From assembly GCA_947381435.1 (NCBI GenBank), contig CANCVE010000009.1:1-64000 (forward strand): DNA of 64,000 bases, read 5' to 3'. Source of the stretch: Chitinophagaceae bacterium (GTDB lineage Bacteria; Bacteroidota; Bacteroidia; Chitinophagales; Chitinophagaceae). The notes below the pieces were generated by a model, which saw only the letters and a list, made by a program, of their open reading frames with translations, had not been told where the DNA came from and searched no databases. Below, in pieces: positions 9,739 through 61,016 of this stretch (position 1 is its first letter; the number at the start of each line of letters is the position of its first letter). Made by a program: the position numbers and the translations under genes.

Positions 9739-9906
9739 ACTTATTGCCATATTTGGTGTACTTATCTCTCGCAATATATGTCCTAAATTTTTATACAGCA
9801 CACATTTGTCGCGAATAATATGCCCTAAATTTTTGTACAGCACACATTTGTCGCAAATAATATGCCCTAAACTTTTATACAGGGCACTTATTTTCTGCTA
9901 TATTTA
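9739..9906. repeat. Tandem array, eight 21-bp units in alternating types
   Basis: Eight successive 21-bp blocks start at 9739, 9760, 9781, 9802, 9823, 9844, 9865 and 9886. Blocks at 9781, 9823 and 9865 begin T/CCCTAAA and contain TACAG; those at 9802 and 9844 begin ACATTTGTCGC; the outer ones begin ACTTATT or ACTTATC. The composite period is 42 bp. The block at 9865 has a GCCCT...AGGGC dyad with its neighbour base. Two more degenerate blocks may precede (from 9697). The array sits 70 bp before the GH2 gene. Confidence 0.8.
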
Positions 9907-9975
9907 AACTTTTTTATCGCTTGCTATTCAATTAGTCTTTAGAAAGTGATATATATTTACAAACAATAATAACTA

Positions 9976-12930
9976 ATGAAGAAGATTTCCGCTCTGTCAC
10001 TGCTTTGTTTACTATCTATAACCGCTGTGATTGCCCAGAAAGGTGAACGGGTAAAATTTAATTTTAATAGTGATTGGAAAGTAAGAGTGGGCGACACCAC
10101 CGGTGCAGATGCGCCTAGCTTTAATGATGAATCGTGGAAGGGCGTTACCTTACCTTATGCCTGGAATGAGAATGATGCCTTTAAGGTTTCGATAGACCAA
10201 TTGAGTACAGGCATTGCTTGGTATAGAAAGCATTTTACCATTGATGAATCTAAAAAAGGACAAAAGATATTCTTAGAGTTTGAAGGTATCAGGCAAGCTG
10301 GAGAGTTCTTTTTGAATGGAAAGTCTATTGGCTTGAGCGAGAATGGCATCATGGCTTTTGGTTTTGATATTACCAATGATGTGTTGTTTGGAAAAGACAA
10401 TGTGCTTTCTGCCAAGATAGATAATGCCTGGAACTATCACGAAAAAGCATCCAAGAGTGGCTTTCAGTGGAATGATAAGAACTTTTATGCCAACTACGGC
10501 GGCATCAATAAGAACGTTTTTATCCATATAATGAATCCTGTTTATCAAACCTTGCCGTTGTTTAGTAACCTCGGTACCACAGGCGTTTATGTATATGCCG
10601 ACAACTTTAATATTGCGCAGAAAACTGCCACCATTCATACTTCTTCGCAGGTAAAGAATGAAAGCGGTAAGACACAGACTGTTGGATATGAATTGGCGAT
10701 TATAGACAGGGATGGCAAGACAATTCAAACTGCTAAGGGGAATACTTTTACGATTAATGCTGGCGAAACGAAGACCGTTGAAGCAGCTACCAATGCAAGC
10801 GGACTAAACTTTTGGAGTTGGGGTTATGGTTATCTCTACACCGTGCAAACAACTTTGAAGATAGATGGCAAGACGGTTGATGTAGTGAATACTAAAACAG
10901 GCTTTAGAAAAACAGCTTTTACAAATGGAGTGCTTACCCTAAACGATAGGGTAATACAAGTGCATGGATACGCACAACGTACTACCAATGAGTGGCCTGC
11001 TATTGGCAATTCGGCGCCTGCTTGGTTGAGCGATTATAGTAATAACCTGATGGTAAAAAGCAATGCCAACCTTGTACGTTGGATGCACGTAACCCCTTGG
11101 AAACAAGATGTGGAAAGCTGTGACCGTGTAGGTTTGATTGAGGCAATGCCTGCTGGTGATGCTGAAAAAGATGTGGAAGGCAGACGATGGGAGCAACGCA
11201 AGGAAGTAATGCGTGATGCCATTATTTATAACAAAAACAATCCTAGCATCATATTTTATGAGTGTGGTAACGCGCCAATAAGTGAGAAACACATGGCTGA
11301 AATGAAGCAGATTAGAAACCAATACGATCCAAATGGTGGCAGGGCAATTGGCTCTAGAAATATGCTAGATAGTAAGGAAGCTGAGTATGGTGGCGAAATG
11401 CTATACATAAACAAAAGTGCTACCAAACCCATGTGGATGATGGAATACAGCCGTGATGAAGGTTTGCGTAAATATTGGGATGAGTTTACACCGCCGTATC
11501 ATAAAGATGGTGATGGTCCGCTACACCAAGGACAAAATGCTTCGGCCTACAACCGCAACCAAGATAGCCATGCCATTGAAAACATTGTGCGTTGGGAAGA
11601 ATATTATAATGCGCGTCCCGGTACTGGTAAGCGTGTAAATGGTGGAGGGGTTAAGATTATATTTAGTGAAAGCAATACACACCATCGTGGTGCAGAGAAC
11701 TATAGAAGAAGTGGTGGGGTTGATGCCTTGCGTATTATAAAAGACAACTTTTATGCCAACCAGATTATGTGGGATGGCTGGGTTGATGTAGAACATCCGG
11801 GCATACACATAATAGGTCACTGGAACTATGAGAGTGGTGTAAAGAAGAATGTATATGTAATCTCATCGGCTGACAAAGTAGAGTTGAAGATTAATGGCAA
11901 GTCGATTGGCTTTGGTGTACGGAGCAATCATTTTCTGTTCACATTTAAAGACATTGCCTACAAAGAAGGAACTATTGCCGCAACAGGTTTTGATGCTGCT
12001 GGCAAAGAAATATGTGCAACAAGTATGACCACTGCCGGTGATCCTGTGGCCATTAAACTAACGCCAATCGTTAGTCCGAAAGGGTTGGTGGCAAATGGTC
12101 AGGACTTAGCATTGGTAGAGTTTGAAGTGGTGGATGCAAAAGGCAACAGATGCCCTACTGCCTTAAACACGGTAAAGTTTACTGTTAATGGCCCTGCCGA
12201 ATGGCGTGGAGGTATGGCACAAGGTCCTGATAATTATATTTTGGCACAAGAGTTTCCTGTAGAGTGTGGGGTAAATAGGGCGTTTATACGTACTACCACA
12301 AAGGCTGGTAATATTGTTATTAAAGCAACTTCTGATGGACTAAAGGAAGGAACACTTACACTTACGTCCTTACCATTTTTATCTAATAAAGGCTTGAGTA
12401 CTACTTTGCCTGATGAAGGGCTTACAGGCAATTTAGCTAAAGGCCCAACACCTTCAACACCATCTTACAAAATAGTTAGAAAAGCATTGAACATTGTAAG
12501 CGCTACAGCAGGTTCTAACAGTGATAGTGCTTACAAGAGTTATGATGATAATGAGGCAACAGACTGGATAAATGATGGCGATGCTTCTACAGCTTGGATA
12601 CAGTACAATGTAGAAAAGCCAGACATGATAAATCAGGTTTCGTTAAAGCTAAACAACTTTAGAACTAGGGTTTACAATTTGAATATCTATGTAGATGATA
12701 AGCTAATGTTTAAAGGTGCTACCACACCAAACCTTGGTTATTTCACGGCTTCATTTGCGCCCACAAAAGGTAGTAAGGTTAAGATAGCGTTGGCAGGAGC
12801 AAGTACAGATAACCAAGATACAGGTGTAGAAGTAAACGGAAAGAAACTAGATGATGGCATTATGCGTGATAATAAAGGCGGTAAAGGGAAGCTAAGCATT
12901 ATTGAGGCGGAGCTATACGCAGTACCTTAA
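9976..12930 (+). CDS. Secreted glycoside hydrolase family 2 enzyme (beta-galactosidase-like)
   Basis: The 984-residue protein has a signal peptide (1-20, AIA/Q), a GH2 sugar-binding jelly roll (about 30-190), an Ig-like sandwich (about 210-310), a TIM barrel (about 320-600), further Ig-like modules and a C-terminal discoidin-like sugar-binding domain (about 840-984). The expected nucleophile is Glu490 in WMMEYSRDEG. At the acid/base site the usual Gly-Asn-Glu is replaced by YECGNAPIS (Glu429, then Gly431-Asn432-Ala433), suggesting Glu429 or another residue serves. There is no T9SS tail, so a periplasmic location is likely. With the PL4 lyase nearby, a role in pectin side-chain removal is plausible but unproven. 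Confidence 0.85.
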   Translation: MKKISALSLLCLLSITAVIAQKGERVKFNFNSDWKVRVGDTTGADAPSFNDESWKGVTLPYAWNENDAFKVSIDQLSTGIAWYRKHFTIDESKKGQKIFLEFEGIRQAGEFFLNGKSIGLSENGIMAFGFDITNDVLFGKDNVLSAKIDNAWNYHEKASKSGFQWNDKNFYANYGGINKNVFIHIMNPVYQTLPLFSNLGTTGVYVYADNFNIAQKTATIHTSSQVKNESGKTQTVGYELAIIDRDGKTIQTAKGNTFTINAGETKTVEAATNASGLNFWSWGYGYLYTVQTTLKIDGKTVDVVNTKTGFRKTAFTNGVLTLNDRVIQVHGYAQRTTNEWPAIGNSAPAWLSDYSNNLMVKSNANLVRWMHVTPWKQDVESCDRVGLIEAMPAGDAEKDVEGRRWEQRKEVMRDAIIYNKNNPSIIFYECGNAPISEKHMAEMKQIRNQYDPNGGRAIGSRNMLDSKEAEYGGEMLYINKSATKPMWMMEYSRDEGLRKYWDEFTPPYHKDGDGPLHQGQNASAYNRNQDSHAIENIVRWEEYYNARPGTGKRVNGGGVKIIFSESNTHHRGAENYRRSGGVDALRIIKDNFYANQIMWDGWVDVEHPGIHIIGHWNYESGVKKNVYVISSADKVELKINGKSIGFGVRSNHFLFTFKDIAYKEGTIAATGFDAAGKEICATSMTTAGDPVAIKLTPIVSPKGLVANGQDLALVEFEVVDAKGNRCPTALNTVKFTVNGPAEWRGGMAQGPDNYILAQEFPVECGVNRAFIRTTTKAGNIVIKATSDGLKEGTLTLTSLPFLSNKGLSTTLPDEGLTGNLAKGPTPSTPSYKIVRKALNIVSATAGSNSDSAYKSYDDNEATDWINDGDASTAWIQYNVEKPDMINQVSLKLNNFRTRVYNLNIYVDDKLMFKGATTPNLGYFTASFAPTKGSKVKIALAGASTDNQDTGVEVNGKKLDDGIMRDNKGGKGKLSIIEAELYAVP

Positions 12931-12941
12931 GCTAGATATTA

Positions 12942-12981
12942 GATATTAGTTATGAGATATGATAGAATAATAACTAATATC
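12942..12981. terminator. Bidirectional hairpin between GH2 gene and rluF
   Basis: GATATTAGTTAT (12942-12953) pairs perfectly with ATAACTAATATC (12970-12981) around a 16-nt loop, between two convergent stops (12930 and 13009). Flanking copies of AGATATTAG and CTAATATCT can extend or rearrange the pairing. It is AT-rich with no strong T-run. Confidence 0.5.
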
Positions 12982-13008
12982 GCATATCTAATATCTCATA
13001 TCTAAAGA

Positions 13009-13746: not shown

Positions 13747-13939
13747 TGTCTGTTTATTAATTCTATTAAACGAATAGTTGCAAAGAAAACTAAAAGTCGG
13801 GAGTTAGTCGAAAGTTTAAAGTTGTAAGTCAGGAGTTGGGAAATGGGAATCGTGAGTCCATAAGTAAAACGTTAGTCGCAAGTTACAGCTCTGGGCTCAT
13901 GTATAACGAATAATAACTCACGATTAACGATTACTGACT
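13747..13939. repeat. Low-complexity intergenic repeat with dyad
   Basis: The gap is built of GTTAGTCG/AAGTTGTAAGTC-like words. AATCGTGAGT (13848-13857) is complementary to ACTCACGATT (13916-13925). Similar AGTTACT/GTAAGT word patches occur at 28800-28985 and 35830-35900. Confidence 0.45.
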
Positions 13940-15445: not shown

Positions 15446-15464
15446 AAGAAAGTTTGTTAGCCTA

Positions 15465-15472
15465 CAAAAATA
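15465..15472 (-). promoter_or_regulatory. -7 promoter box for the siroheme/TSUP fusion gene
   Basis: The minus strand reads TATTTTTG, a perfect TAnnTTTG, 19 bp before the TTG start at 15445, which supports that start. Confidence 0.55.
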
Positions 15473-25683: not shown

Positions 25684-25718
25684 AACGGTCAACAAGCTTC
25701 ATAAGCTTGTTGACCGTT
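25684..25718. terminator. Long perfect hairpin after the SNF2 gene
   Basis: AACGGTCAACAAGCTT (25684-25699) is perfectly complementary to AAGCTTGTTGACCGTT (25703-25718) with a CAT loop. There is no long T-run, so it may be a palindromic repeat as well as a terminator. Confidence 0.65.
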
Positions 25719-25740: not shown

Positions 25741-25904
25741 TAGAACTTTGTTGTATGCCATCCTCGTTAAAAAGAATGAGTAAAAACTTTGTTTTATGTC
25801 ATCGCAGTCAAAAAGGACGAGTAAAAACTTTGTTGTATGCCATCCTCGTTAAAAAGGATGAGTAAAAACATTGTTTTATGCCATCGTAGCAAAAAAGGAC
25901 TAGT
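25741..25904. repeat. Tandem array, four 41-bp units
   Basis: Units start at 25741, 25782, 25823 and 25864. Each begins with an AACTTTG-like word (AACATTG in the last), then T(G/T)TATG(C/T)CATC, an A-rich block, and ends GAGT or TAGT. Units 1 and 3 are almost identical; 2 and 4 resemble each other. CATCCTCG and AAGGATGAG give an internal dyad. It lies between the SNF2 gene and alaS, which converge. Confidence 0.85.
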
Positions 25905-25985
25905 AAAATAGAATATTACATAGAACCCGACAATGACTCTTCAAACAAAAAAGAGTTAAGAAGCTTGCTGACTGTTACCATCGAA

Positions 25986-28794: not shown

Positions 28795-28990
28795 ACGGAA
28801 AAATAGCCATTAGTTACTGGATACACGTTACAAGTTACCGGATACAAGTTGCAAGTTTGGGTCTAACTTCATCGAAGGGAGTTCTTAAATTGATAGAAAC
28901 ATAACTAAGGTTGCAGGATTCTTAGTTATGATTTAGGCAGTTACTGGTAACTAGTAACCTGCAACTAGTAACTAAAAACCTGCACATTTT
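28795..28990. repeat. AGTTACTGG-type low-complexity intergenic patch
   Basis: The patch between divergent alaS and the M23 gene is made of repeated GTTACTGGATAC, GTTACAAGTTACCGG and GTAACTAGTAAC-like words; the left and right halves are partly complementary. It resembles patches at 13800-13925 and 35830-35900. No gene. Confidence 0.45.
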
Positions 28991-29972: not shown

Positions 29973-29994
29973 GAGGATGGAAAAGATAAAGTTT

Positions 29995-30073
29995 AACACA
30001 TAGAAACATAGGGAAATAGTAAACATAGATTTTGGATAACTATGTTTACTTTATTTCTATGTTTCTATGTGTT
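29995..30073. terminator. 34-bp imperfect palindrome between M23 gene and mutL
   Basis: Arms 29995-30028 and 30040-30073 are complementary save a few mismatches (AACACATAGAAACATAG / CTATGTTTCTATGTGTT), loop 11 nt. It lies between convergent stops, so it probably ends both transcripts. Confidence 0.65.
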
Positions 30074-30140
30074 GAAAAAAGAACTAAAATTAATTTTCTT
30101 TGTGCCTCTTTGAGCCTTCGAGACTTTGTGGCACAAAAAT

Positions 30141-32103
30141 CTACATCAATCGCTGAAACATTCTGTCTATCTGATTTTCAGTATAAGCCACATAAGTAGG
30201 GCTACCCGTTGGCGTAACATTCGGAGTAGTACAAGCAAATAACTTTTCAATAAGGGTCTGCATCTCATGTTCAGTAAGTGATTGACCCGCCTTGATGGAT
30301 TGCTGACGAGCCATACAACGAACCAATTTTTCTCTATTGCTAAACTTTACATCGCTATTAAAATGCTTAAATTGCTCCAACAATAGCTCAATGCTATTCT
30401 TTTCGTTGCCCTTTAATATATCGGCAGGAACCCCCTGAATGATGAAGGTGTTATTGCCAAAAGGTTCAATGGCATAGCCTATTACTTGAATTGAAGGTAG
30501 TAAATCTTGCAGTAAGGCGGCATCGGGGGCAGATAATTCCAATGTTACAGGAAAAAGACTTTGCTGGGTAATCATCTGTGTGCCGTGCGATGCGGCACTA
30601 TACATATCGTACAAAATACGTTCGTGCGCTAGTTGTTGATGTACCAACAGAAAACCACTTTCGGCAGTAGCCAGAATGTAGGTGTTATGAACCTGAATGC
30701 AACGCATAGAGGCATATTTAGATAATGGAGACGTAGTGTTTACCAATGGTGGGTCATCATCTATCGGTAATTGTAAACCATAAGTTGGTATGGGTTTACT
30801 AGCAGGCACACCACCAATCAATTCATCAGTATTTAATTCATTAGGCTGAAAAAAGTCTTTCCAATGTTTCAATTCGCTTTTATTGGTAGGCTCCATTAAA
30901 TGTGCTTGTCCCTTTTGAGAAAAAGTTTTAAATAAATTTGATGAAGAAGTTTCTTCCTGTTGGCGATCAGTAAATGGCTTACTTACCGCATCAAGACCTT
31001 GTATCTCTGGATTCAATGTAAAATCGAGCGATGGGGCAATGCTAAACTGTGCCCCATCGCTCGATTTTACATTGACTCCAGAGATACAAGGTAAAATCGA
31101 GCGATGGGGCAATGCTAAACTGTGCCAAGGCATGTTTTACGGCTGCTTGCACAAACGCGTATACTATCCGTTCATCCTCAAACTTTATTTCCTGTTTAGT
31201 TGGGTGTACGTTAATATCAATCTGTGCAGGATCTAAATCAATAAATAAAACATAGCTGGCAAAGCTATCCTTGGCAATCATATCACTAAACGCACTGCTA
31301 ACTGCATGGTTGAGGTAGGCACTCTTTATAAATCTATTGTTCACAAAAAAGTATTGGTCGCCCCGCGTTTTCTTAGCAGTTTCTGGTTTGCCCACAAAGC
31401 CATACACGTTTACATAGTCCATTTCTTCCTTTACACTTACCAATTTGGTATTGTAATTATTCCCTAAAAGCTGAACAATCCTTTGTTTAATGCTACCCGA
31501 TTCCAAATGAAATTGTTCCAGCCCATTAATGGTAAGCGAGAAGAAAATTTGTGGGTAGGCCATTGCTACCCGTGTAAACTCATCAATAATGTGCCTTGTT
31601 TCTACTGCATTTGTCTTTAGGAAATTCCTGCGTGCGGGCACATTAAAAAACAGGTTCTTCATGCTAATACTTGTGCCTGTGTTAGCAGCACAAGGCTCTT
31701 GTTTAGTTACCACACTGTTTTCTACCGTAATAAAAGTGCCTAGTTCATCCTCAGCCCTTCTTGTCTTTAGTTCCACCTGAGCCACCGCCGCAACACTAGC
31801 CAATGCCTCTCCCCTAAAACCCATTGTTTTAATGCTAAACAGGTCGTCTATATTTCTTATCTTACTGGTGGCATGTCTTTCAAAGCTCATTCTAGCGTCG
31901 GTTTCGCTCATGCCTTTGCCATTGTCTATTACCTGTACAAGGGCTTTACCTGCGTCCGAAACAATCAGTTGAATGTTTGTGGCACCAGCATCTATTGCAT
32001 TTTCCAATAGTTCCTTCACAGCACTAGCGGGTCGTTGTATCACTTCTCCCGCTGCTATTTGGTTGGCTATATTATCGGGTAATAATTGTATGATGTCTGC
32101 CAC
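30141..32103 (-). pseudogene. mutL: DNA mismatch repair gene mutL, split by a 73-bp insertion
   Basis: From ATG 32103 the N-terminal ATPase half is complete ([51 protein letters not shown]). It runs into foreign frame and stops at 31042 just after [17 protein letters not shown]. The same [11 protein letters not shown] sequence then reappears and continues in another frame through the linker and dimerisation/endonuclease domain (HQQLAHERILYD; MARQQSIKAGQSL) to 30141. Removing 73 bp (the offset of the 36-bp direct repeat at 31018-31053 and 31091-31126) restores one continuous frame of about 630 residues. As written the gene cannot make full MutL, implying a mutator strain, a heterogeneous population or an assembly artefact. 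Confidence 0.85.
30997..31126. repeat. Fold-back insertion inside mutL (inverted plus direct repeat)
   Basis: A 42-bp inverted repeat (30997-31038 against 31050-31091, one mismatch, 11-nt loop) overlaps a 36-bp direct repeat (31018-31053 and 31091-31126). This geometry is what a local template switch or a chimeric read would make, and differs from any insertion sequence. Confidence 0.9.
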
Positions 32104-32164: not shown

Positions 32165-32374
32165 CTAGCTAGCTAGAATGTTTGTCTGGCAAGCTAGAGT
32201 GTTTGTCAAGCCAGCCAGAAAGTTTATCTAGCTAGCTAGAATGTTTCTCTAGCCAGCTAGAATGTTTGTCTAGCTAGCTAGAATGTTTCTCTAGCCAGCT
32301 AGAAAGTTTGTCTAGCTAGCCAGAAAGTTTATCTAGCTATCTGAAATGTATGTCTAGCTAGCTAGAATTGTTTT
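32165..32374. repeat. Tandem array, ten 21-bp CTAG-rich units
   Basis: Ten 21-bp units run from 32165 to 32374 with starts every 21 bp. Most begin CTAGCTAGCTAGAA or CTAGCCAGCTAGAA and end TGTTTGT, TGTTTCT or AGTTTAT; every CTAGCTAG half is self-complementary. Units alternate between CTAGCTAG and CTAGCCAG types. It fills the gap between ispE and the mutL start and could affect the mutL promoter. Confidence 0.9.
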
Positions 32375-32422: not shown

Positions 32423-33358
32423 TTACTTATTAGAAGCATTAGAAGTGTTGTACACAAAATAATGTTCTGGAAAAGAAAGTTTTGGATTGATATCCTTCTC
32501 AAAAATGCCAAATACCGTACTGCCACTACCCGTCATACTACTATAAACGGCTCCTTGTTTATATAATTCTTGTTTGATCGTACCAATTTCTGGATAATGA
32601 TTAATGGCAGGCAATTCAAAATCGTTCAGCAACGTGTCCTTCCAAATATGTATCGGTTGAGTAATAATATTTTTTATTGATTGAGAAGGAATCTTCGGTG
32701 TAATGTTTCCAAATGCCCATCCTGTGCCAATATGTATTTTAGGATTAATGATTACAAATTGGTATGCTGACAAATCCAATGCTATTTCTTCCATCAATTC
32801 ACCCCTGCCTGTAGCAAAACAAGGTTTGTTAAGGATAAAAAAGGGACAATCGCTACCCAATTGCAAGGCGTAATTAATTAATTGTTCTTTAGATAAGTTT
32901 AGGTGGAAGGTATCATTCAATAGTTTCAAAGCAAAAGCCCCATCAGCACTTCCGCCGCCCAATCCTGCACCCATCGGAATCACCTTGTGCAAGTGCATTT
33001 GTATATTCGGTAAAGAAGGAAAGTCTTTTTTAAGAAGATAATAGGCTCTAATACAGAGGTTGTCTTCGCTACTGCCGTTTATGATTAATCCAGAAGTGGT
33101 GAACCGTTGACCGTTGACAGTTGACCGTTGATTATGGAGAGTAGATTCAGTTATATTTATTTCTTCGCTTCGTTCATCGGTTAACGGAATGCGGTTAACG
33201 GTTGACTGCTCACTGTTAACTGTTGACTGACGGATTACTTCCAACCCATCTCTTAATGGTATAGGATAAAAGACAGTTTCCAAGTCATGATAACCATCCT
33301 CTCTTTTACGAAGAATATTAAGTCCGAGATTTATTTTACAGTTAGGAAAAACAATCAT
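32423..33358 (-). CDS. ispE: 4-diphosphocytidyl-2-C-methyl-D-erythritol kinase with in-frame insert
   Basis: IspE phosphorylates CDP-methylerythritol in the MEP isoprenoid pathway. The GHMP-kinase layout is clear: NCKINLGLNILRKREDGYHD at the N-terminus, ATP-binding PMGAGLGGGSADGA, and SMTGSGSTVFGIF near the end. Residues about 44-85 (LEVIR, then QSTVNSEQSTVNR ... STVNGQR) interrupt the domain between VIR and FTTSGLII. Their DNA (about 33104-33229) is made of repeated GTTGAC/GTTAAC words like intergenic patches elsewhere. The insert keeps the frame and falls in a surface loop region, so activity may persist. The length (311 aa) exceeds the usual about 270-290. Confidence 0.92.
   Translation of the reverse strand: MIVFPNCKINLGLNILRKREDGYHDLETVFYPIPLRDGLEVIRQSTVNSEQSTVNRIPLTDERSEEINITESTLHNQRSTVNGQRFTTSGLIINGSSEDNLCIRAYYLLKKDFPSLPNIQMHLHKVIPMGAGLGGGSADGAFALKLLNDTFHLNLSKEQLINYALQLGSDCPFFILNKPCFATGRGELMEEIALDLSAYQFVIINPKIHIGTGWAFGNITPKIPSQSIKNIITQPIHIWKDTLLNDFELPAINHYPEIGTIKQELYKQGAVYSSMTGSGSTVFGIFEKDINPKLSFPEHYFVYNTSNASNK
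33104..33229. repeat. GTTGAC/GTTAAC-word repeat insert within ispE
   Basis: About 126 bp with several copies of CCGTTGAC, CAGTTGAC, GGTTAACGG and ACTGTTAACTGTTGAC, flanking a less repetitive core. Intergenic DNA upstream of 35971 holds similar ACAGTGAACAGTAAACAG words. Confidence 0.65.
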
Positions 33359-33467
33359 TTAGTTGTTAGTTATTAGTGTTTAGTTGTTAGATAATGCCGA
33401 TTAGTTAAATTTTGTATCGGAGAAAGCAAATGCCTTATTCTAACCACTAATAACTAATCACTAACAA

Positions 33468-34058
33468 CTACTTTCTCTTATTTATCTCATCTCTAATGGC
33501 TATAGCCCTAATGTAGTCCTCATTTTCAAGCACTTCATTCAATAGTGATTCCAAGTCCGAAAGGCTCATTGAAGTAAGGTCATCACGTTCTCCGCCACCT
33601 GTTTCTTCAATGCCCACTGCATCACCTTTACTCTTTTGGGGTGTAGTATCGCCCATCATTATGCCGGCGCTATCTAGAATATTTTCGTAGGTATATATTG
33701 GGCAACTAAAGCGTACTGCCAATGCTAAGGCATCGCTAGTACGGCTATCTATTTCTACAGTGTCATGTTCTGTAAAGCAAACTAGCTTAGAAAAGAATAT
33801 GCCCTCTTGCAAATCTGTAATAATTATTTCTTGAAGCTGAACATCAAATGCGTTCATAAAGTTTTTCATCAGGTCATGAGTGAGTGGGCGGCTAGGGCTC
33901 ATACGTTCCAAGGCAACTGCAATTGCTTGCGCCTCAAATCCACCAATAACTATCGGCAAACGACGTAGTCCGTTCACTTCTCCCAACACCACTGCATAAG
34001 AGTGTGTTTGTGTAATACTATGTGAAAGGGCAACAATTTCTAATTCAATTTTCTTCAT
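33468..34058 (-). CDS. Bifunctional nuclease (BFN/DUF151) domain protein with C-terminal UVR motif
   Basis: The 196-residue protein has a DUF151/BFN domain (about 1-135; VVLGEVNGLRRLPIVIGGFEAQAIAVALE; DSRTSDALALAVRF), named after plant bifunctional nucleases and common in bacteria. A short UvrB/UvrC-type helical hairpin ends it (about 160-196; LSDLESLLNEVLENEDYIRAI). The UVR motif usually mediates protein contacts in repair or Clp-related proteins. The biochemical role in bacteria is unsettled. A perfect -7 box at 34090-34097 precedes it; ispE lies 109 bp downstream in the same direction across an imperfect AGTTGTTAG palindrome. Confidence 0.88.
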   Translation of the reverse strand: MKKIELEIVALSHSITQTHSYAVVLGEVNGLRRLPIVIGGFEAQAIAVALERMSPSRPLTHDLMKNFMNAFDVQLQEIIITDLQEGIFFSKLVCFTEHDTVEIDSRTSDALALAVRFSCPIYTYENILDSAGIMMGDTTPQKSKGDAVGIEETGGGERDDLTSMSLSDLESLLNEVLENEDYIRAIAIRDEINKRK

Positions 34059-34685: not shown

Positions 34686-34703
34686 GTAACCAATTGATAA
34701 GTA

Positions 34704-34759
34704 ATAATTGATAATTGATAGGTATTCTTACTGATGAATAACTTTCAATTATCAATTAT
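34704..34759. terminator. AT-rich bidirectional hairpin between convergent genes
   Basis: ATAATTGATAATTGA (34704-34718) pairs perfectly with TCAATTATCAATTAT (34745-34759) around a 26-nt loop, between stops 34685 and 34769. It belongs to the AATTGATAATT word family. Confidence 0.55.
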
Positions 34760-34768
34760 AAATTAACC

Positions 34769-38271: not shown

Positions 38272-38396
38272 TGGTCTTCTGGTTTATAGTTGCTTTGTCA
38301 ACGTTTTATCAGTTTGTCCTTTACAATTTCAGCAATCACTTACAGAAGTAAGTAATTTAAAAGAAAAAATGGGGATGATTTGACCGAAAAGTTTAC

Positions 38397-38480
38397 GAAG
38401 GAGCAACCTTCCTTCATGAAGGAAAGACAAGAATTCACGAAAGAGCAGCCTTCCTTCACGAAGAAACAACCTTATGTCTC
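38397..38480. repeat. Tandem array, four 21-bp GAAGGAGCAACC-type units
   Basis: Blocks start at 38397, 38418, 38439 and 38460. Blocks 1 and 3 read GAAGGAGCAACCTTCCTTCA and close variants with an internal GAAGG...CCTTC dyad; blocks 2 and 4 are more diverged. A degenerate fifth block may precede (38376-38396). It lies after the heparinase-like gene. Confidence 0.75.
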
Positions 38481-45914: not shown

Positions 45915-48900
45915 TTAAAATTTATTGGGTAATACTTTATTTAAAAACTTATTATAACCTGACACGTTCTTGTTGTCTTGCAACAAAAGCAAATTGCGTT
46001 CACTAATGATACTGTATCGATAAACCGATTTTGGCAACCATGGAATGATGGTTTTAGCCACATAAGGTTTTATCTTATCGAGGTAATCTATTGCAGCTTT
46101 TGCATTCATAAAAGGACCGAAATACACAAATGAGTACCTATCATCAATTTTGTTTGCAGCAATCTCTATATCATCCTTAAAGCTAGAAGCATTGAACTTA
46201 TTGAATGCGCTTGCTGCTGTGTTGATAAACGTCTTCATCACATCATCTAGCTGAATATTTGCATAATGTGGTGCATTTGGATCCCAAATAAATGAGGTGT
46301 CTGAACTATTTGGATTCAATCTTCGTAATGAATCTGCAATTCTTGCCTTACGAATAGCCTCATACATCTTTATTTTATTCAATGAATCGGTTAGATGCTT
46401 CCTCGATGCAGCATCCATCATATTTATTTTCCGCAAAGAATCTTCAACAAAAGCTTTACGTTTAAGTGCATCGGCAAGGCTTTGTTTACTCAATGAATCT
46501 GCTATATGTTTTCTCCGTAAAGCATCCGCCAATGAGGCATTGCGTAACGAATCTGCTAAGTGTTGCTTTCTTAATGCTTCTGCCAGACGTGCATTCTTCA
46601 AGGAATCTGCCAAGTGTTGTTTCCGCAGGGCATCTGCAAGGCTTGCCTTTCGGAGCGAATCTTCCAATTGCTTCTTCCTTAGCGCATCCGCCAAACTAGC
46701 ATTACGCAACGAATCTGCAATATGCTGCTTGCGCAAGGCATCCGATAAACCAGCATTTTTGAGCGAGTCTGCCAAATGTTGTTTACGCAATGTTTCTGCA
46801 TAATTAGCTTTATTAAGCGAATCATTTTTGTGTGCACGAAGTATTGAATCGGCTATAAACAGCTTTCGCAATGAATCAGACAAATGAATCATTCTAAGGG
46901 AGTCATAGTTGATATGCAACAGACTGTCTGCAATTCTTTTTGCGGCTACAATGGCAGCCAAACTATCGGCTCTACGCATTCCTCTTAAACGCAAAAACTC
47001 AATCATTCTATGTGCCTTGTCTACCATATTGGTATCAGGCTTCATACTTATTAAGGTTTCTAACTTATTGATTGCCTTAAAATCATCTTGTTGATCAATG
47101 TAATAAACAGACTCTATCAACAACAATTGAGGCGTCCAATGCGATGGACCATATTTTGTATCGACAGCAGTCTTGGCGGTTCTTGCTTCTGTATATTTTG
47201 CTTCTAAAAACTGATCATATATCTTCTTATAAACCTGCGTAGTATCATCTTCCACCACATCTTTACGGTGTTCATTTAGCAAGTTTGCAGTAAACTCTCC
47301 ATCTGGATACTTTTTCTTAAGGTAATGTGCTATGGAATCTGCCCTTAGTTCTAAACCAAGTTGTTCGTAGCAATAGATTAGGTTATAATTGGCTTGTTCT
47401 ATTTTTTTGTGAGAAGGGAAACGCGCAATAAAGGGCTCATAACTATCAATAGCTGGTTTAAATTGCCTTAAATCATTTTGAAAAACAACCCCATTGGTAA
47501 ATAAAGCATTTGCCAATAAGCTATCCGACTTCTGCTTTTGTTCAGGCATCAAGGGTAAGTTACGCATCAATCCCTCATAGGTAAGTTCCAATTTAGTAGT
47601 GTCTTCATTAGATGCTGGTTTTGCAGGAACATCTACTGGGTCAACATCATTACCCACAGCCATATTCATATCGCCCGGCCCAGCATCAGGATCTACAGGA
47701 GCCGCAGCCGCAGGTTTTGCAGCTTTAGGTTTGTTGGTTGCTTGCTGAGTAGGTGCTTTAGAAATAGCTTCTTGTCGTTGCCAATTATCGGCATTTGGCC
47801 GGTTGCCCCACCTCGATTTAAACTCTTTACCTCCTTGTAATACCAATGTTGGATTATTGAAATAAAAGTCTCCAGCTTTCGTATTGTCAAATAGTGTAGT
47901 GGCAGTGGGTACTACATCCTGGGGGTTATCACTACCAAAATCTATAGTCTCTTCTTCCTTTGCACCTTGCTCCTTTCGTAGTTTACGTAATATCTTTTTA
48001 ATCAATGAGCGCTGTTCTGCATCAGTCATATTGGCCACACGCTGCAAACTATCCTGTGTTGCAATGACTGTAAGATTATTAGTGATAATTTTAAGTGCAG
48101 GTTTACGTTCCTCTACCCTTCTCTTTTCCTCAGCCGTAAGCGATTCGGTAGAATTTATACTATCGTAGAAGTTGTAAGACAACTTAAACTCGCGGCTATC
48201 GAAGTAAGTATCTGCTAACAGAAGAAAAGTCTTTTGCTTCTGCACAGGGTTGTCAGTATTGTACTTCAAGCTTCTATTCAAGGCTTTGATGGCAGCAGGT
48301 TTATTGTTGTTTTGAAGTTCCAATTGGCCAGCCACATGATAAATTACATCTCTATAGGCAGCAAACTTATCTCTTCTGCCAAGGTGATATATCTCCGAAA
48401 TATTATCTTGAATAGTATATCCTTTGTTGTTGGAATGAAGGGAAACTAAGTTTAATCTAGCAAAGATTTCCATCAAGGGGTCGGTAGTTGTCTTGATACT
48501 TTTACCATAATAAACGGCAGCTAACGAATCATTGTGTTTGCTACGTTGCAACATTTGCCCTATTAAAAACTCCCAACGCGCTCTTTCGAGTGGACCATCA
48601 GCTCCATCCAATGCCTTTTCTAAATGGTATGCCGAGCTATCCCATTGCTGACTCTTGTAACAAGAATAGGCAATCATTTCATGCAGCGGAATTGCTAATC
48701 TTTTCGGAAATAATATATCACTTTTCAATAAGGCAATCAATGCATCGGCACGTGCTACCTGATCGCGCTCTAAGTAGGTACGAACTTGCCACAAAAAGCT
48801 TTCGTTACGGCTTGGTGGATTTGTCATCAAGTATTGAATCCTTTTCGTTTTCTCGATGGTAGAAATACTAAAGATGCCTTTATCGTTGCTAATATTACTT

Positions 48901-49436
48901 CCTATTGGTATATCGTAACCATCATCTTTTGGTGACCAAGCATAGTTTACGTACTGAAACACATATCCTGCCGAGTCGAAGTTGTTTTTCAACAGAAAAG
49001 CCCTTCCCATCAGCATATACATATTATCTATCCAGTCGTTGCGCAAATCATGGAGCAACACTCCAGCCGTAACCTTGTACATCAGGGAATCTATTTGTAC
49101 AGTTTCCTTTGCTGTGTTGCTATAACTGAAGTTGTAAAAAGGAAGAAGCTGTGTATAATCGTCTTTATGCAATTCTTTAGCCCGCTCTATTATCTCATTC
49201 AGTTTATTGTTTGCATTAAAGAAGTAATTGTAGTGCGTAAACATATTCTGAAAGAAATGTTTTGCACTAGAGAAACCAGTTTCGCCAGACTTTTCAGAAA
49301 CTAAAGTTCTATTTACATATTGAGGGGGTTTCTTACCGTATAAATCGACGGTGGAATAGGGTTGCGCATGTATTAGTGCTGTCATTGCAAACAGACAGAC
49401 AAGTATTAATACAAAAAAACGGACGCATTTTATCAT
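45915..49436 (-). CDS. T9SS accessory protein PorW/SprE with 18-residue tandem repeats
   Basis: The large protein (1173 aa from ATG 49436) has a signal peptide (to about 24) and TPR-like helical repeats through about residue 800, including AAIKALNRSLKYNTDNPVQK and FPSHKKIEQANYNLIYCYEQ, as in the SprE/PorW lipoprotein family needed for gliding and type IX secretion. Residues about 878-1000 are six to seven tandem 18-residue units (ALRKQHLADSLKNAGLSD type), predicted as one long alpha-helix, followed by a C-terminal SPOR-like part. No lipobox Cys was found in place. ATG 49463 lies within the -7 box (49457-49464), so 49436 is the start. The PBP gene follows directly. Confidence 0.82.
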   Translation of the reverse strand: MIKCVRFFVLILVCLFAMTALIHAQPYSTVDLYGKKPPQYVNRTLVSEKSGETGFSSAKHFFQNMFTHYNYFFNANNKLNEIIERAKELHKDDYTQLLPFYNFSYSNTAKETVQIDSLMYKVTAGVLLHDLRNDWIDNMYMLMGRAFLLKNNFDSAGYVFQYVNYAWSPKDDGYDIPIGSNISNDKGIFSISTIEKTKRIQYLMTNPPSRNESFLWQVRTYLERDQVARADALIALLKSDILFPKRLAIPLHEMIAYSCYKSQQWDSSAYHLEKALDGADGPLERARWEFLIGQMLQRSKHNDSLAAVYYGKSIKTTTDPLMEIFARLNLVSLHSNNKGYTIQDNISEIYHLGRRDKFAAYRDVIYHVAGQLELQNNNKPAAIKALNRSLKYNTDNPVQKQKTFLLLADTYFDSREFKLSYNFYDSINSTESLTAEEKRRVEERKPALKIITNNLTVIATQDSLQRVANMTDAEQRSLIKKILRKLRKEQGAKEEETIDFGSDNPQDVVPTATTLFDNTKAGDFYFNNPTLVLQGGKEFKSRWGNRPNADNWQRQEAISKAPTQQATNKPKAAKPAAAAPVDPDAGPGDMNMAVGNDVDPVDVPAKPASNEDTTKLELTYEGLMRNLPLMPEQKQKSDSLLANALFTNGVVFQNDLRQFKPAIDSYEPFIARFPSHKKIEQANYNLIYCYEQLGLELRADSIAHYLKKKYPDGEFTANLLNEHRKDVVEDDTTQVYKKIYDQFLEAKYTEARTAKTAVDTKYGPSHWTPQLLLIESVYYIDQQDDFKAINKLETLISMKPDTNMVDKAHRMIEFLRLRGMRRADSLAAIVAAKRIADSLLHINYDSLRMIHLSDSLRKLFIADSILRAHKNDSLNKANYAETLRKQHLADSLKNAGLSDALRKQHIADSLRNASLADALRKKQLEDSLRKASLADALRKQHLADSLKNARLAEALRKQHLADSLRNASLADALRRKHIADSLSKQSLADALKRKAFVEDSLRKINMMDAASRKHLTDSLNKIKMYEAIRKARIADSLRRLNPNSSDTSFIWDPNAPHYANIQLDDVMKTFINTAASAFNKFNASSFKDDIEIAANKIDDRYSFVYFGPFMNAKAAIDYLDKIKPYVAKTIIPWLPKSVYRYSIISERNLLLLQDNKNVSGYNKFLNKVLPNKF
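46435..46803 (-). repeat. 54-bp (18-codon) tandem repeat within the PorW/SprE gene
   Basis: Six clear and one diverged units encode ALRKQHLADSLKNAGLSD-type blocks; each unit is two related 9-residue halves (RKQHLADSL / NAGLSDALR). Eighteen residues equal five alpha-helical turns. Confidence 0.85.
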
Positions 49437-49456
49437 TGTTACCTCTATAGAGTCCA

Positions 49457-49464
49457 CAAACATA
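49457..49464 (-). promoter_or_regulatory. -7 promoter box for the PorW/SprE-PBP operon
   Basis: The minus strand reads TATGTTTG (TAnnTTTG), 20 bp before ATG 49436. Confidence 0.6.
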
Positions 49465-49702: not shown

Positions 49703-49968
49703 AATGGCAAACATCGCTTCATTTATTGCCTCTTTCTTCCTAACAACGGCAAACAATACCCCTTCCTATTGCCGTTTATGATCCGGAAACGGCAAACAAC
49801 ACCCCTTCCTATTGCCGTTTTTGATTCAGAAACGGCAAACAATACCCCTTTCTATTGCCGTTTATGTTCCAGAAACGGCAAACAACACCCCTTCCTATTG
49901 CCGTTTATGCTCCGGAAACGGCAAACAATACCCCTTATCATTGCCGTTTATGCGCCAGAAACGGCAAT
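49703..49968. repeat. Tandem array, about six 43-bp units with AAACGGCAA/TTGCCGTTT dyads
   Basis: Units start at 49745, 49788, 49831, 49874, 49917 and 49960 (partial), exactly 43 bp apart, with a diverged unit before them (49703-49744). Each contains AACGGCAAACAA, then ACCCCTT, then TATTGCCGTTT, so each can fold into a hairpin with a 9-bp AAACGGCAA/TTGCCGTTT stem. The remaining sequence (TATGATCC, TGATTCAG, TATGTTCC) varies slightly. It sits in the 741-bp gap between the divergent PorW/SprE and Crp/Fnr genes. The rest of that gap (49465-49702 and 49969-50177) shows no certain gene. Confidence 0.9.
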
Positions 49969-54002: not shown

Positions 54003-54020
54003 GTTTCTTTCAAGCTTGGT

Positions 54021-55445: not shown

Positions 55446-55454
55446 AAAATGATT

Positions 55455-57884: not shown

Positions 57885-58225
57885 AGCTAGCTATTTAATT
57901 TGAGATATATGTGGATTTTTGTCACGAGGGTTAAACTATTTATACAACGGTTAAAAGACGACACTGTTTAAACTTATCAAAACAAATCAATCCATTCAAG
58001 GTTAATACTCAGTAACACAACTATTTATTTTCGTATTTAGCGTATAATAAAGAAGAAACTATTACACAAATATTATATTTAGCGTAAATATAGTAGATTG
58101 AAAAGTAATGGGCAAAAGAAAAGTGACAAACCGCACTTAAACATTAATAATGTTTAAGTGCTGTTTGTCACTTTTTTAGAACAATTATACTTAGGTAAGC
58201 CTATGTCAGAAGATAAGTTATCTAA
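57885..58225. other. Upstream region of the kinase operon with paired TATTTAGCGTA motif
   Basis: TATTTAGCGTA occurs at 58034-58044 and 58076-58086, 42 bp apart. No gene. The gap also holds the hairpin at 58119-58175 next to the OmpA stop. The motifs could be regulator sites for the kinase operon (minus) or chance AT-rich repeats. Confidence 0.35.
58119..58175 (-). terminator. Terminator of the OmpA-type lipoprotein gene
   Basis: AAGTGACAAAC-CG-CACTTAAACATT (58121-58145) pairs with AATGTTTAAGTG-CT-GTTTGTCACTT (58149-58173), a 23-bp stem with one 2-nt internal loop and a 3-nt loop, T-rich on both sides. Confidence 0.88.
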
Positions 58226-58900
58226 TTATTTAGTACTTGCTTCCTTTGTTGCGTCTGCTTTCATTTTATCATTGGCAGATATTACAAACTTTACATTACG
58301 ATTTTGACTACGTCCTTCTTCAGTATCGTTACTATATTGAGGAGAAGCTTCGCCAAATCCTTTACTTGTAAGTCTTGTAGCATCGATACCTTTTGTAGAT
58401 AAATATGCAGTAACAGCATCAGCTCTTTTTTGAGATAATTTAAGATTTAGTGCGTCAGTTCCAGTATTGTCGGTATGACCTTGAATTTCTATGTTGGTAT
58501 CAGGATATTTTACCAACAATGCAAATAGTTTATCTAAACTAGACTTAGAAGCAGCTGATAAATCTGATTTCCCTACAGAAAACAAAACCTTATCACTAAA
58601 CTCAATTACAATACCTTCTCCTACCCTTTCTACTTTTGCACTTGGTATATCTTTTTGAATTTCTGCAGCTTGTTTATCCATTTTATGACCAATAATAGCC
58701 CCTGCTCCTCCACCTACAGCGGCACCAATTATGGCACCTACACCTACGTGACCAGATAGGCTACCAATTAATCCACCCAATACTGCACCAGCACCTGCGC
58801 CAATAGCACTACCTTTTGTTGTTTTGTTTGCACTACTACAACTAAAAAGTGCAAAGGAACACAACATTAAAACTACCGTAAACTGTTTCATTAATCTCAT
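58226..58900 (-). CDS. OmpA-family lipoprotein with glycine-zipper region
   Basis: The 224-residue protein has a lipoprotein signal with Cys21 (FALFSC), a glycine-rich zipper (about 31-75; SAIGAGAGAVLGGLIGSLSG) like YMGG/SlyB-type membrane-associated segments, and a C-terminal OmpA peptidoglycan-binding domain (about 95-210; IQGHTDNTGTDALNLKLSQKRADAV; SNDTEEGRSQNRNVKFV). It likely links the outer membrane to peptidoglycan. A second in-frame ATG (58891) is close. A perfect -7 box lies upstream. Confidence 0.9.
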   Translation of the reverse strand: MRLMKQFTVVLMLCSFALFSCSSANKTTKGSAIGAGAGAVLGGLIGSLSGHVGVGAIIGAAVGGGAGAIIGHKMDKQAAEIQKDIPSAKVERVGEGIVIEFSDKVLFSVGKSDLSAASKSSLDKLFALLVKYPDTNIEIQGHTDNTGTDALNLKLSQKRADAVTAYLSTKGIDATRLTSKGFGEASPQYSNDTEEGRSQNRNVKFVISANDKMKADATKEASTK

Positions 58901-58943
58901 AACTTTTCTTTTTAAACTTAAATAAATTTGTCAATCCCAACAT

Positions 58944-58951
58944 CAAAAATA
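58944..58951 (-). promoter_or_regulatory. -7 promoter box for the OmpA-type gene
   Basis: The minus strand reads TATTTTTG (TAnnTTTG), 43 bp before the start codon. Confidence 0.55.
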
Positions 58952-59036
58952 CAGTACTAAACTTGCATTCAGCTATTTGGGGAAGGCAAATATATGACTA
59001 TGGATATTAATAGTTAACGTAGAAATATTTACAACA

Positions 59037-59066
59037 AAACAGGCCACTCATCTGAGCAGCCTGTTT
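59037..59066 (-). terminator. Terminator of the Spy-like gene
   Basis: AAACAGGC (59037-59044) and GCCTGTTT (59059-59066) form an 8-bp stem with an inner CTCA/TGAG pair, about 70 bp past the stop at 59137. Confidence 0.65.
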
Positions 59067-59136
59067 AAAACTGTTTTTACGCAAAATTATTTTTGTAATC
59101 AATCATTTCGTAGTAATATATCTCTTACACAGACAC

Positions 59137-59556
59137 CTATTCCTTTCCACGTGGCGGTTGTTCACCATGAGGATGTTTGGGGCGTAGTGTTTTCTCTATT
59201 TCCACATACTTATTGTATTGTTCTGGTGTTAATGCTTGTTTTATTTTGGCATCTCTTTCTCCAGACAATTTATCTGCTATTTCCTTTTTTACTGGCGGTG
59301 GCGGTGGTGGTGGCGCATCCCTATCAATGTTTTTATCCATATCTGTAAAGAATGTTTTGTAGGCTACCAAAATTTTTTGTTTTTGTTCGGGCGTAAGCTG
59401 CAATTGTTTATTCAGTTCTGTACTCACCCTGTTCAATCGTTGTTCTAAAGTAGGTGGTTTGGGTGGTTGTGGTCTATTATTATCTTCTTTTTCTTGAGCC
59501 ATACATACGCTCACAAACAGTAGCATAATACCTACTAATACAGTGTTCTTTTTCAT
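59137..59556 (-). CDS. Spy/CpxP-like periplasmic protein
   Basis: The 139-residue product has a signal peptide (1-20, CMA/QE) and two LTPEQ motifs (LTPEQKQKI near residue 55; LTPEQYNKY near 110) as in the Spy/CpxP/LTxxQ family of periplasmic chaperones and stress sensors. Between them lies a Pro-rich stretch (APPPPPPPV). The C-terminus is His/Pro/Arg-rich (RPKHPHGEQPPRGKE), which might bind metal. No regulator is adjacent. Confidence 0.78.
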   Translation of the reverse strand: MKKNTVLVGIMLLFVSVCMAQEKEDNNRPQPPKPPTLEQRLNRVSTELNKQLQLTPEQKQKILVAYKTFFTDMDKNIDRDAPPPPPPPVKKEIADKLSGERDAKIKQALTPEQYNKYVEIEKTLRPKHPHGEQPPRGKE

Positions 59557-59663
59557 GATGATAAAATTTATTTAGTGAATCAATACAATATCAGAAGAGG
59601 AAACTAGCTAAAACCTTTGCCGATAGATGTTAAAAAACACTAAACAAATTGTATAATGGCAAT

Positions 59664-60608
59664 CTACACTACTACCTTCTTCACCATTACCACATTTACC
59701 ACCAATGCCACACCATCTTCCTTTACAAAGTCTATTGTAAAGTCTTCATAGCCAGCAAGTTTGGCAGTCAGCGTCAGCACATCATAAAGCGATGTATTGA
59801 TGATATAATTACTATCGGCATCACTTAGTACGCGCTTACCTACACCCACAAGGTATAGCTGCACATTGGGCAATAATGTGTTTGTAATACTTTCCATACA
59901 TAAACCTGAAATTAATGATGGTAAGCCAATACTTATAAATTGCATTCCCCATAAACGCCCCTGCACCCTTATACTCGATGCATCGTCGAGACTGTAAAAT
60001 GCTTCTATTTCGTTCCAGATGTGTTTGATGAGGTCTTTTATTTCGGCATTCTGTTTCTTTAGTTTACTTATTGCCGTTGTAACTACTGTTTTAGCATTAC
60101 TTACGGCCCTAATAATAGGCGTTGCGTCATTTATTATTGTGGTAATCTCCGCAATAGTAGGAGATGCTATTGCAATGCCACCATCGGCTATGCGGGCAGC
60201 ATCGCCGGTAAGTAACAGTTCTGCTGCGGCAAGCAAAGTGGCATCGGTACGCATGTTGGGCATCTTTCTGTTGGTAATTTCAAGTCCATAAAATGCCCTT
60301 GCCGATGCCAATATTGTGTTCAGGTCTATGCAATTATTAATGCTGGTATAAAAACTTTTTATATATTTTCTTAGCAACTTCCGCTGCGGTCTTGCAAGTT
60401 CCACAGCTTTGTGAAAAACCTGCCATGCCGCTACTATGGCTGCCTTACCAGCATTGTATGCGGCAATATCAGTATCCAATCTGGCAGAAGTAGCATCTGA
60501 GAGTATATTATCTGCGGGGATGACGGCACCATCCTTCTTGGCTTTTGCAGTGTTTAATGCCTTTATGGTTGCGATGATAGATTGAGGTAAGCGTCTAGTA
60601 ATGCCCAT
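59664..60608 (-). CDS. Repeat-linked protein of unknown function, 314 aa (full-length copy)
   Basis: Not recognised as a named family. Residues 1-about 210 are helical and Ala-rich (KALNTAKAKKDGAVIPADN; AELLLTGDAARIADGGIAI; AISKLKKQNAEIKDLIKHIW). Residues about 215-314 form a beta-rich domain with carboxypeptidase-regulatory-like pattern (SGLCMESITNTLLPNVQLYL ... YEDFTIDF). There is no signal peptide. The upstream DNA holds a 41-bp palindrome array (60853-61016) and an AT-rich stretch that are both conserved beside the truncated copy at 15882-16187. Such gene-plus-array units appear to be a recurring genomic element; a link between protein and palindromes is inferred from synteny only. Confidence 0.75.
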   Translation of the reverse strand: MGITRRLPQSIIATIKALNTAKAKKDGAVIPADNILSDATSARLDTDIAAYNAGKAAIVAAWQVFHKAVELARPQRKLLRKYIKSFYTSINNCIDLNTILASARAFYGLEITNRKMPNMRTDATLLAAAELLLTGDAARIADGGIAIASPTIAEITTIINDATPIIRAVSNAKTVVTTAISKLKKQNAEIKDLIKHIWNEIEAFYSLDDASSIRVQGRLWGMQFISIGLPSLISGLCMESITNTLLPNVQLYLVGVGKRVLSDADSNYIINTSLYDVLTLTAKLAGYEDFTIDFVKEDGVALVVNVVMVKKVVV

Positions 60609-60852
60609 AACATATAGATAATTCGTGATGAAAACTGATTAATAAAATCATTTTAACCAACCATCGCGATATCCCCTGTTGCGGCTACACTTTTGATTTA
60701 GTGGAGTAATAACCTAATAAGTAACGACAATCTTTTTAGAAAGGGTGAAGTTATGTATTAATCAACAGTTCAAACTTTATTATTCGATCTATTTAAAAAG
60801 ATTTATTTTCTATTATTTTTCATTTGGATTAATTCTACAAAAAACAACCATG

Positions 60853-61016
60853 CTACCAGTACTGGTAGGACACTTATAAAGGAAATAATCGACCTACCAG
60901 CGCTGGTAAGCCACTTATTCAATAAATAAATAACCTACCAGTGCTGGTAAGGCACTTATGGCAGAAATAAAGAATCTACCAACGCTGGTAGGGTAGTTAT
61001 TACTTTTATAAGTAGC
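60853..61016. repeat. Tandem array, four 41-bp palindrome units (CTACCAG-NN-CTGGTAG)
   Basis: Units start at 60853, 60894, 60935 and 60976. Each opens with a dyad: CTACCAGTACTGGTAG (perfect, 16 bp), CTACCAGCGCTGGTAA, CTACCAGTGCTGGTAA and CTACCAACGCTGGTAG. The first three then read GACACTTAT, GCCACTTAT or GGCACTTAT before an AT-rich tail; the last reads GGTAGTTAT. The rest of the 546-bp gap holds the AT-rich stretch shared with 15752-15840 and no gene. Confidence 0.9.

Follow-up and report, generated by a model that had tools for sequence, protein, structure and literature searches.

Bacterial interspersed mosaic elements (BIMEs) have repetitive extragenic palindromic (REP) sequences in common. 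In Escherichia coli, the BIME-2/REP arrays are intergenic and contain palindromes, and BIME-2 elements are proposed, in the portion of the source that we draw on, to be strong gyrase sites independent of transcription, perhaps with a role in genome organisation (PMC6379681). Among Bacteroidota, the BrickBuilt and 464/PgRS elements of Porphyromonas gingivalis are spacer-free direct repeats whose units measure 23 nt (intergenic) or 41 nt (parts of PMC4596501). The parS_F (sopC) site of the F plasmid is built of twelve tandem repeats of 43 bp, in which ParB binds ten inverted repeats of 16 bp (PMC6238139, in excerpt), and the protein BldC oligomerises head-to-tail on direct repeats and distorts the DNA (PMC5859096, in excerpt). 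Here, we describe tandem arrays that are like each of these systems in part, namely six intergenic arrays in the window, i.e., the 64,000 bp of contig CANCVE010000009.1 (positions 1 to 64,000; assembly GCA_947381435.1, a Chitinophagaceae bacterium). An earlier note on this DNA held that these arrays, despite their different sequences, share periods of 21 or 41–43 bp, that every unit would hence show the same face to a protein, and that the shared spacing suggests a common process. The observation is confirmed; the interpretation as a whole is partly supported.

Six Arrays in the Window

The six arrays, delineated by Tandem Repeats Finder (TRF) and lag identity, are as follows.

9739–9906, no strand assigned: A1, 42-bp tandem array of about 3–4 units in a divergent intergenic region
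25741–25908, no strand assigned: A2, 41-bp array of 4 units with A/B alternation (82-bp higher-order unit) in a convergent intergenic region, adjoining alaS
32165–32374, no strand assigned: A3, 21-bp array of 10 units with the palindromic core CTAGCTAGCTAG, between ispE and mutL
38395–38480, no strand assigned: A4, 21/42-bp array (4 x 21) with the core CCTTCAYGAAGG in a convergent intergenic region
49703–49968, no strand assigned: A5, 43-bp array of 5.2 clear units plus a degenerate edge, with inverted arms AACGGCAA/TTGCCGTT, in a divergent intergenic region
60853–61016, no strand assigned: A6, 41-bp array of about 4 units with the palindromic core TACCAGYRCTGGTA

The best lag identity of every array exceeds that of all 200 shuffles and TRF agrees, so the six arrays stand where they had been placed; their periods were partly revised. 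A1, described earlier as 8 x 21 bp, has its best lag at 42 (identity 0.67), with lag 21 outside the top eight, and is better described as about 4 x 42. For A4, the proposed 4 x 21 bp is borne out insofar as period 21 is present (0.57), but 42 dominates (0.71). The lags of A2 are 41 (0.80) and 82 (0.89, a true A/B alternation), those of A3 are 21 (0.79) and its multiples, and A5 and A6 have their best lags at 43 (0.80) and 41 (0.72), respectively. As claimed, all six are intergenic by the list of open reading frames (ORFs), two in divergent and two in convergent regions and two between co-directional genes.

The suggestion that the units often hold a dyad applies to A3, A4, and A5, where the dyad of the consensus unit is significant, but not to A1, A2, and A6 by the same test. 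Over 55 arrays, 12 have a dyad with p<=0.02 (mean score 5.1 vs 4.1), and symmetry of the whole unit reaches p<0.05 in just 12 of 71. Dyads are thus a tendency, not a rule, and were rejected as the shared feature.

A Period Lattice in One Clade

The genome of the window (G000) is a draft of 4.88 Mb in 231 contigs; most of its 80 best named relatives by MutL belong to assemblies of Chitinophagaceae, and metagenome bins come closest. We sampled the window and 20 stretches of G000 (456 kb, ~9% of the genome) together with nine relatives of the same genus, 1.20 Mb in total, the ten genomes (G000–G003, G005–G007, and G009–G011) making up the array-bearing clade. Twelve genomes served for comparison (793 kb), namely G004, G008, and G012 of the same genus, and G013–G016 and G018–G022 of the family. 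The stretches of the relatives were taken from large contigs or from contigs matched in protein searches, some of which were known beforehand to hold an array. Genes were called by ORF length, and arrays were retained at a TRF score >=60 and a length >=50 bp, with at least half of the array outside ORFs of >=100 aa.

In the ten clade genomes, 86 noncoding arrays pass these cut-offs, with periods (counts in brackets) of 7 (9), 14 (1), 20 (1), 21 (43), 22 (1), 26 (1), 29 (2), 41 (9), 42 (14), 43 (1), 63 (2), 84 (1), and 181 (1) bp. Among the 76 non-heptad arrays, 71 have periods of 20–22, 41–43 or 63 bp and one more of 84 bp, the four off this lattice being at 26, 29, 29, and 181 bp; none has a period of 31–32 or 52–53 bp. 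The wider distribution is therefore sharply peaked at 21 and 41–42 bp, not flat, both in the 9% sample of G000 and in its relatives, which extends the shared spacing beyond the six arrays as had been anticipated.

In each of the ten clade genomes, lattice arrays reach a density of 2.1–8.2 per 10 kb of noncoding sequence, and the count of 29 in the noncoding DNA of the 456-kb G000 sample extrapolates to roughly 300 per genome. The samples of the twelve sister and outgroup genomes contain no lattice arrays; what the same pipeline yields there is 13 arrays with other periods, plus two with a period of at most 9 bp. The 1.33 Mb from 80 named mutL loci across the family gave 13 arrays, three of them in lattice classes; at two such loci, L083 and L132, the 21-bp consensus units look built of heptads. 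The simplest reading, drawn from these samples and not from a tree, is a single origin of the lattice inside this genus.

Chance, or an artefact of repeat finding or assembly, might come to mind given that nearly all the genomes are drafts and that several array matches sit at contig ends. We attach almost no weight to it: the pipeline that yields the lattice in the clade yields none in the 12 other genomes, simulated arrays, once recovered, nearly always return the true period, and ten separately assembled genomes agree.

The absence of periods of 31–32 and 52–53 bp implies a quantum of 21 bp, with multiples of it, and not of one helical turn. Simple helical phasing, as the earlier note had it, is not supported on this point, because three- or five-turn periods would keep phase as well, and a 10.5-bp GC signal is present only in the 41–43 class; phase alone is insufficient, and a two-turn subunit step would suffice. 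Nor are the 21-bp units three degenerate heptads, because their circular identity is 0.265 at lag 7 vs 0.256 at other lags. The possibility that every 42-bp unit is a dimer of 21 bp was likewise discarded, similar halves being present in only 4 of 18 units of the 41–43 class, all four of them 42-bp units (0 of 7 41-bp units, and not the one 43-bp unit).

Coding Versus Intergenic Placement

Inside ORFs of the clade genomes, there are 27 arrays, which fall into two groups. In ORFs of <=224 aa, 14 of 15 arrays are on the lattice, and we take most of these ORFs to be a product of the array, since units of 21 bp leave a frame open; a coding origin of the repeats was accordingly rejected. Lattice arrays are nearly absent from long genes: in ORFs of >250 aa, 1 of 12 is on the lattice (42 bp), the others having periods of 6, 14, 23, 27, 51, 54, 54, 87, 153, 156, and 180 bp. 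Outside the clade, the 28 coding arrays are spread across 18 periods, including 21 (3) and 42 (1). A large protein encoded at 45915–49463 in the window (P0004) has a charged repeat region near the C-terminus, and its orthologues in G001, G003, G005, and G010 contain 54-bp (18-residue) coding repeats, off the 21-bp lattice.

The orientation of the flanking genes shows no clear bias (29 tandem, 17 divergent, and 5 convergent, vs 160, 77, and 45 of all intergenic regions >=150 bp). The flanking ORFs include alaS, ispE, and mutL as well as apparent proC, dut, ruvC, and sulfatase genes (named by reading the translations) and hence point to no single pathway.

Several arrays occupy short gaps between co-directional genes, as would be expected if they acted at the RNA level, with transcribed chains of hairpins protecting or terminating transcripts and the unit length being the hairpin module. 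The arrays also fold somewhat better than arrays of shuffled units (mean z -1.0/-1.2 on the two strands, with 14 and 18 of 55 below -2), but the two strands fold about equally and many arrays are no better than the null. Given, in addition, the lack of a clear context bias and the even spacing described below, which an RNA element would leave unexplained, we consider this explanation highly improbable. In the window, no tRNA was found by ARAGORN, and an Rfam search, run on the window only, gave 0 matches at the gathering score.

Turnover of Orthologous Arrays

Comparison of sister species shows directly that several orthologous arrays keep the period and have their sequence rewritten, and that others do not; divergence with preserved spacing, one of the processes envisaged in the earlier note, is thus seen in several cases. 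The flanks of A1 align with those of an array in G005 (L174, only about 2.2 units), and the 42-bp units of both carry the arms (A)TGCCCT and AG(A)GCA, the 12 bp between the arms being almost wholly different between the species and little varied within each. The flanks of A2 align with a locus of G003 (L274) whose array likewise has 41-bp units, about 5 vs 4 in the window; the units of one species alternate, and those of the other are homogeneous. At the A2 flanks in G005 (L051, L284), an array is seen at neither. A perfect hairpin with a 16-bp stem lies directly ahead of A2 in the window (25684–25718), and a similar one is present at the orthologous place in G003. At the A3 place, 21-bp arrays are present in G000, G005 (L287) and, at a contig end, G003 (L286); the last units are common to G003 and G005, and most of the G005 array and the whole G000 array differ. 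A4 and its G003 counterpart (L282) belong to the same family, with a 42-bp unit. Array edges look more degenerate than centres, and some arrays consist of higher-order dimers.

Indel Depletion and Even Spacing

Indels are depleted within the arrays. The units of 55 arrays from six genomes differ from their own consensus by 885 substitutions and 31 gap positions. The comparison set, alignments of repeat-free noncoding DNA between G000 and its relatives (73 alignments, 5811 columns), has 815 substitutions and 80 gap openings. Relative to substitutions, indels are about three-fold rarer in arrays (31/885 vs 80/815, Fisher p=7e-7), in a comparison that pairs unlike sets, i.e., units within one array and alignments between species. 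Up to 15 of the 31 gap positions come from a consensus whose length is off by one base from that of the units, and all 31 were retained, so the estimate is conservative. Detection bias does not explain the deficit because simulated arrays with a true indel ratio of 0.098 gave a measured ratio of 0.100.

The arrays are also spaced more evenly than expected by chance. In the contiguous stretches of G000, where 29 of 159 intergenic regions of >=100 bp have arrays, 20 gaps average 11.6 kb with a coefficient of variation (CV) of 0.50, vs 0.78 for random choice among the same intergenic regions (P=0.0036); in the relatives, with arrays in 43 of 283 intergenic regions, 18 gaps average 11.0 kb with a CV of 0.45 vs 0.78 (P=0.0034). 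Under a null weighted by intergenic length, the respective P values are 0.009 and 0.005. When 8 of the 29 stretches of the relatives, each overlapping a stretch already kept by >4 kb, are dropped, 15 gaps remain (CV 0.44, P=0.0048), and 0 of 5000 random sets are as even as the pooled 35 gaps of G000 and the filtered relatives. Overall, the mean spacing is about 11 kb, with a CV of 0.48 vs 0.80. In the controls, neither long intergenic regions without arrays (84 gaps, CV 0.90 vs 0.93, P=0.33) nor heptad repeats (31 gaps, CV 1.19 vs 0.94, P=0.97) are even. Neighbours of unlike class (21 vs 41–43) keep apart, the smallest of 19 gaps being 2.5 kb, and these gaps behave like the 19 between neighbours of like class; recombination between similar arrays is therefore not an obvious cause of the evenness. 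Neutral minisatellites would show drifting unit lengths and random positions; here, 72 of 76 periods are at 20–22, 41–43, 63 or 84 bp, and the positions are even, with P about 0.004 in two sets.

The main rival explanation is that DNA is amplified in 21-bp steps by a process peculiar to the clade, be it slippage, recombination or an enzyme, and that the arrays are neutral and tolerated only between genes. The single sharp quantum with one clade-wide onset would follow readily, as would the periods of 42, 63, and 84 bp; the degenerate edges, the 4 vs about 5 units of one orthologue, and the higher-order dimers are in agreement with it too. Nevertheless, in-frame arrays of 21 or 42 bp should be tolerable within genes, yet long ORFs are almost free of them, and neutral amplification leaves the even spacing, including that between unlike classes, unexplained. 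Y1 (RAYT-type) transposases, with PF01797 matches in 9 of the 10 clade genomes but also in all 8 array-free genomes searched, do not follow the clade and were rejected as the cause; we know of no enzyme with a 21-bp duplication step. On balance, we regard amplification in 21-bp steps as less likely than not, although it is the most serious of the rivals.

Sequence Families and Dispersal

Similar sequence elsewhere in the sample was found for 9 of the 55 arrays. Sequence families are commoner than this suggests: when six whole genomes were searched, relatives of the L016 array turned up on six G000 contigs and on one G007 contig, and the A2 family is present at three sites in G000 and in six matches on five G003 contigs (one of only 29 bp), with no A2 relatives found in G005, G006, G007, and G010. 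Further sites in G005 and G003 have units of the A3 and A4 types.

Related arrays at several sites (the L016, A2, A3-, and A4-type families) are what one would expect of mobile minisatellites resembling miniature inverted-repeat transposable elements, moved by a transposase acting in trans, as in the case of BrickBuilt and 464/PgRS; the 23-nt and 41-nt direct-repeat elements of P. gingivalis (PMC4596501, as far as the portion used here goes) show such unit sizes within the phylum. Copies of the A2 and A3 families at different sites, however, have only the units in common, with no shared leader, tail or terminal inverted repeat seen by eye, only those 9 of 55 arrays have relatives in the sample, and a transposon would not fix one unit length for unrelated sequences. 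Mobility of this kind therefore appears improbable as the general explanation. L298 and L299 (contigs C131 and C86 of G000, L016 family) do share a flank: they have near-identical units and ~100 bp of upstream sequence in common and diverge downstream, and represent either a segmental duplication carrying the array or variant contigs of one place.

Possible Recognition of Repeat Geometry

A length rule without a single sequence rule, near-confinement to intergenic DNA, and even placement together fit a protein that wraps DNA or polymerises along it and recognises its geometry. We propose, with a probability of about 0.43, that the arrays are docking sites, selected for spacing, for a putative DNA-wrapping architectural protein. 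The arrays would then be one class of chromosomal element, set by unit length (21, about 42, 63, 84) and not by one sequence, that gains and loses whole units and homogenises, such that the sequence is rewritten and the spacing mostly kept. Selection would act on the spacing, along which an architectural protein of low sequence specificity, wrapping or polymerising, would dock. The putative ligand might wrap DNA as gyrase does or be of the HU/IHF type, with one contact every two turns, and docking points about every 11 kb between genes might serve as borders or topological anchors.

Several observations weigh against spacing-selected docking. The A1 place in G003 (L175) holds an array of another period (21 x 2.3); in G005, the orthologous gene is preceded by a 21 x 3.2 array that is unalignable with the 43-bp A5, and in G006, a 21 x 8.7 array beside a homologous gene (57% identity) is unalignable with the 41-bp A6. 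The 41-bp arrays, 9 of the 24 in the 41–43 class, are off by one base per unit. Neither GC nor AA/TT shows a 10.5-bp signal in the 21-bp class (z -1.2 and -0.7), which weakens gyrase-type wrapping there. All four arrays searched in whole genomes (A2, A3, A4, and L016) have relatives elsewhere, which fits dispersal too. With regard to evenness, the test comprises 35–38 gaps in stretches of 10–76 kb, the pattern in G000 was found by looking, so that only the relatives count as replication, and the count of gaps <3 kb alone is not clearly low (P 0.04–0.14).

Bacterial chromosomes are thought to be split into domains of ~10 kb, and to our knowledge, the sequence markers of domain borders are mostly unknown. 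A fixed unit length, free sequence, even spacing, and presence in one clade with close array-free sisters make the arrays possible markers of such borders and the question testable. A broader form of the proposal, about which we are more doubtful, is that a few hundred intergenic arrays would act as sequence-independent chromosomal punctuation, recognised by repeat geometry (a contact per 21 bp), maintained by selection at intervals of ~11 kb as markers of topological domains, with sequences that turn over like those of eukaryotic satellites. If true, this would be a bacterial case of satellite-like DNA with selection on the period alone.

Gyrase is one candidate ligand by analogy. The gyrase motif is ~130 bp long with a 10.75-bp GC periodicity, according to the part of the source used here (PMC6379681); the median array is 139 bp long (with a 50-bp minimum imposed), and the 10.5-bp GC signal of the 41–43 class (z=3.7) is the strongest of 20 tests. 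Phased A-tracts were rejected, there being no AA/TT signal. The copy number of HU was rejected as a cause as well, with 1–2 copies in the clade vs 2–4 elsewhere and no gain. An HU-type copy scoring 85–96 bits against PF00216, besides the best one, is present in 8 of 8 array-free genomes searched, and a copy of 70–78 bits in 8 of 8 clade genomes searched, being the sole hit in G003; in G000, the latter is encoded at C40:30209-30475, with counterparts in seven clade genomes. If the copies are orthologous, as assumed here, the shift in score would amount to one phylogenetic event and is only a lead.

Neighbouring Repeats and mutL

On the minus strand of the window, mutL is split at 31030–31115 into overlapping ORFs (31042–32103 and 30141–31133). 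At the split point, a short stretch is followed by an inverted and then by a direct copy of itself, the arrangement that a fold-back template switch would leave, and the counterpart places in G005 (L287) and G003 (L286) contain a single ORF of about 629 aa; the split is either a biological mutation or an assembly error.

Heptad (7-bp) repeats occur in the window as facing inverted intergenic pairs, at 33359–33390 and 33440–33470, and also at 12933–13005, 28812–28984, and 34692–34765. Among the matches listed, the 33359/33440 pair matches at least dozens of other places in relatives. These pairs are a separate dispersed palindromic element, and heptad repeats are not evenly spaced. Within ispE, at 33100–33230 (about residues 43–85), there is an in-frame heptad-repeat insertion in IspE, and at this place, several relatives have heptad repeats or gaps and G012 has a heptad-looking 21 x 10.9 array. 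Another palindromic element, with an 8-bp period, lies at 29978–30076 (ACATAGAA.../...CTATGTTT) and has many dispersed matches in relatives on both strands, again among the matches listed.

Comparison with Known Systems

In the open-licence PMC literature (titles and abstract openings, among the matches listed), a 21/42-bp lattice of unrelated intergenic arrays was not found. Unlike BIME/REP elements, the arrays described here have the unit length in common and the sequence only partly, no single palindrome is conserved across the copies, the sequence families that exist are small, and Y1 transposases do not follow the arrays. The parS_F (sopC) site, which A5 resembles, is one site for one sequence-specific protein, whereas the sites described here are numerous and mostly differ in sequence, with 29 lattice arrays in the 9% sample of G000, most without a similar array in the sample. 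Each BldC subunit, by contrast with the low sequence specificity proposed here, takes a 9-bp site of recognised sequence (PMC5859096, in the excerpt available). The P. gingivalis elements comprise few sequence families, and BrickBuilt has a leader, a tail, and small inverted-repeat ends, as described in the consulted portion of PMC4596501; in the clade studied here, no common ends were seen by eye in the A2 and A3 families, and the period is a clade-wide rule.

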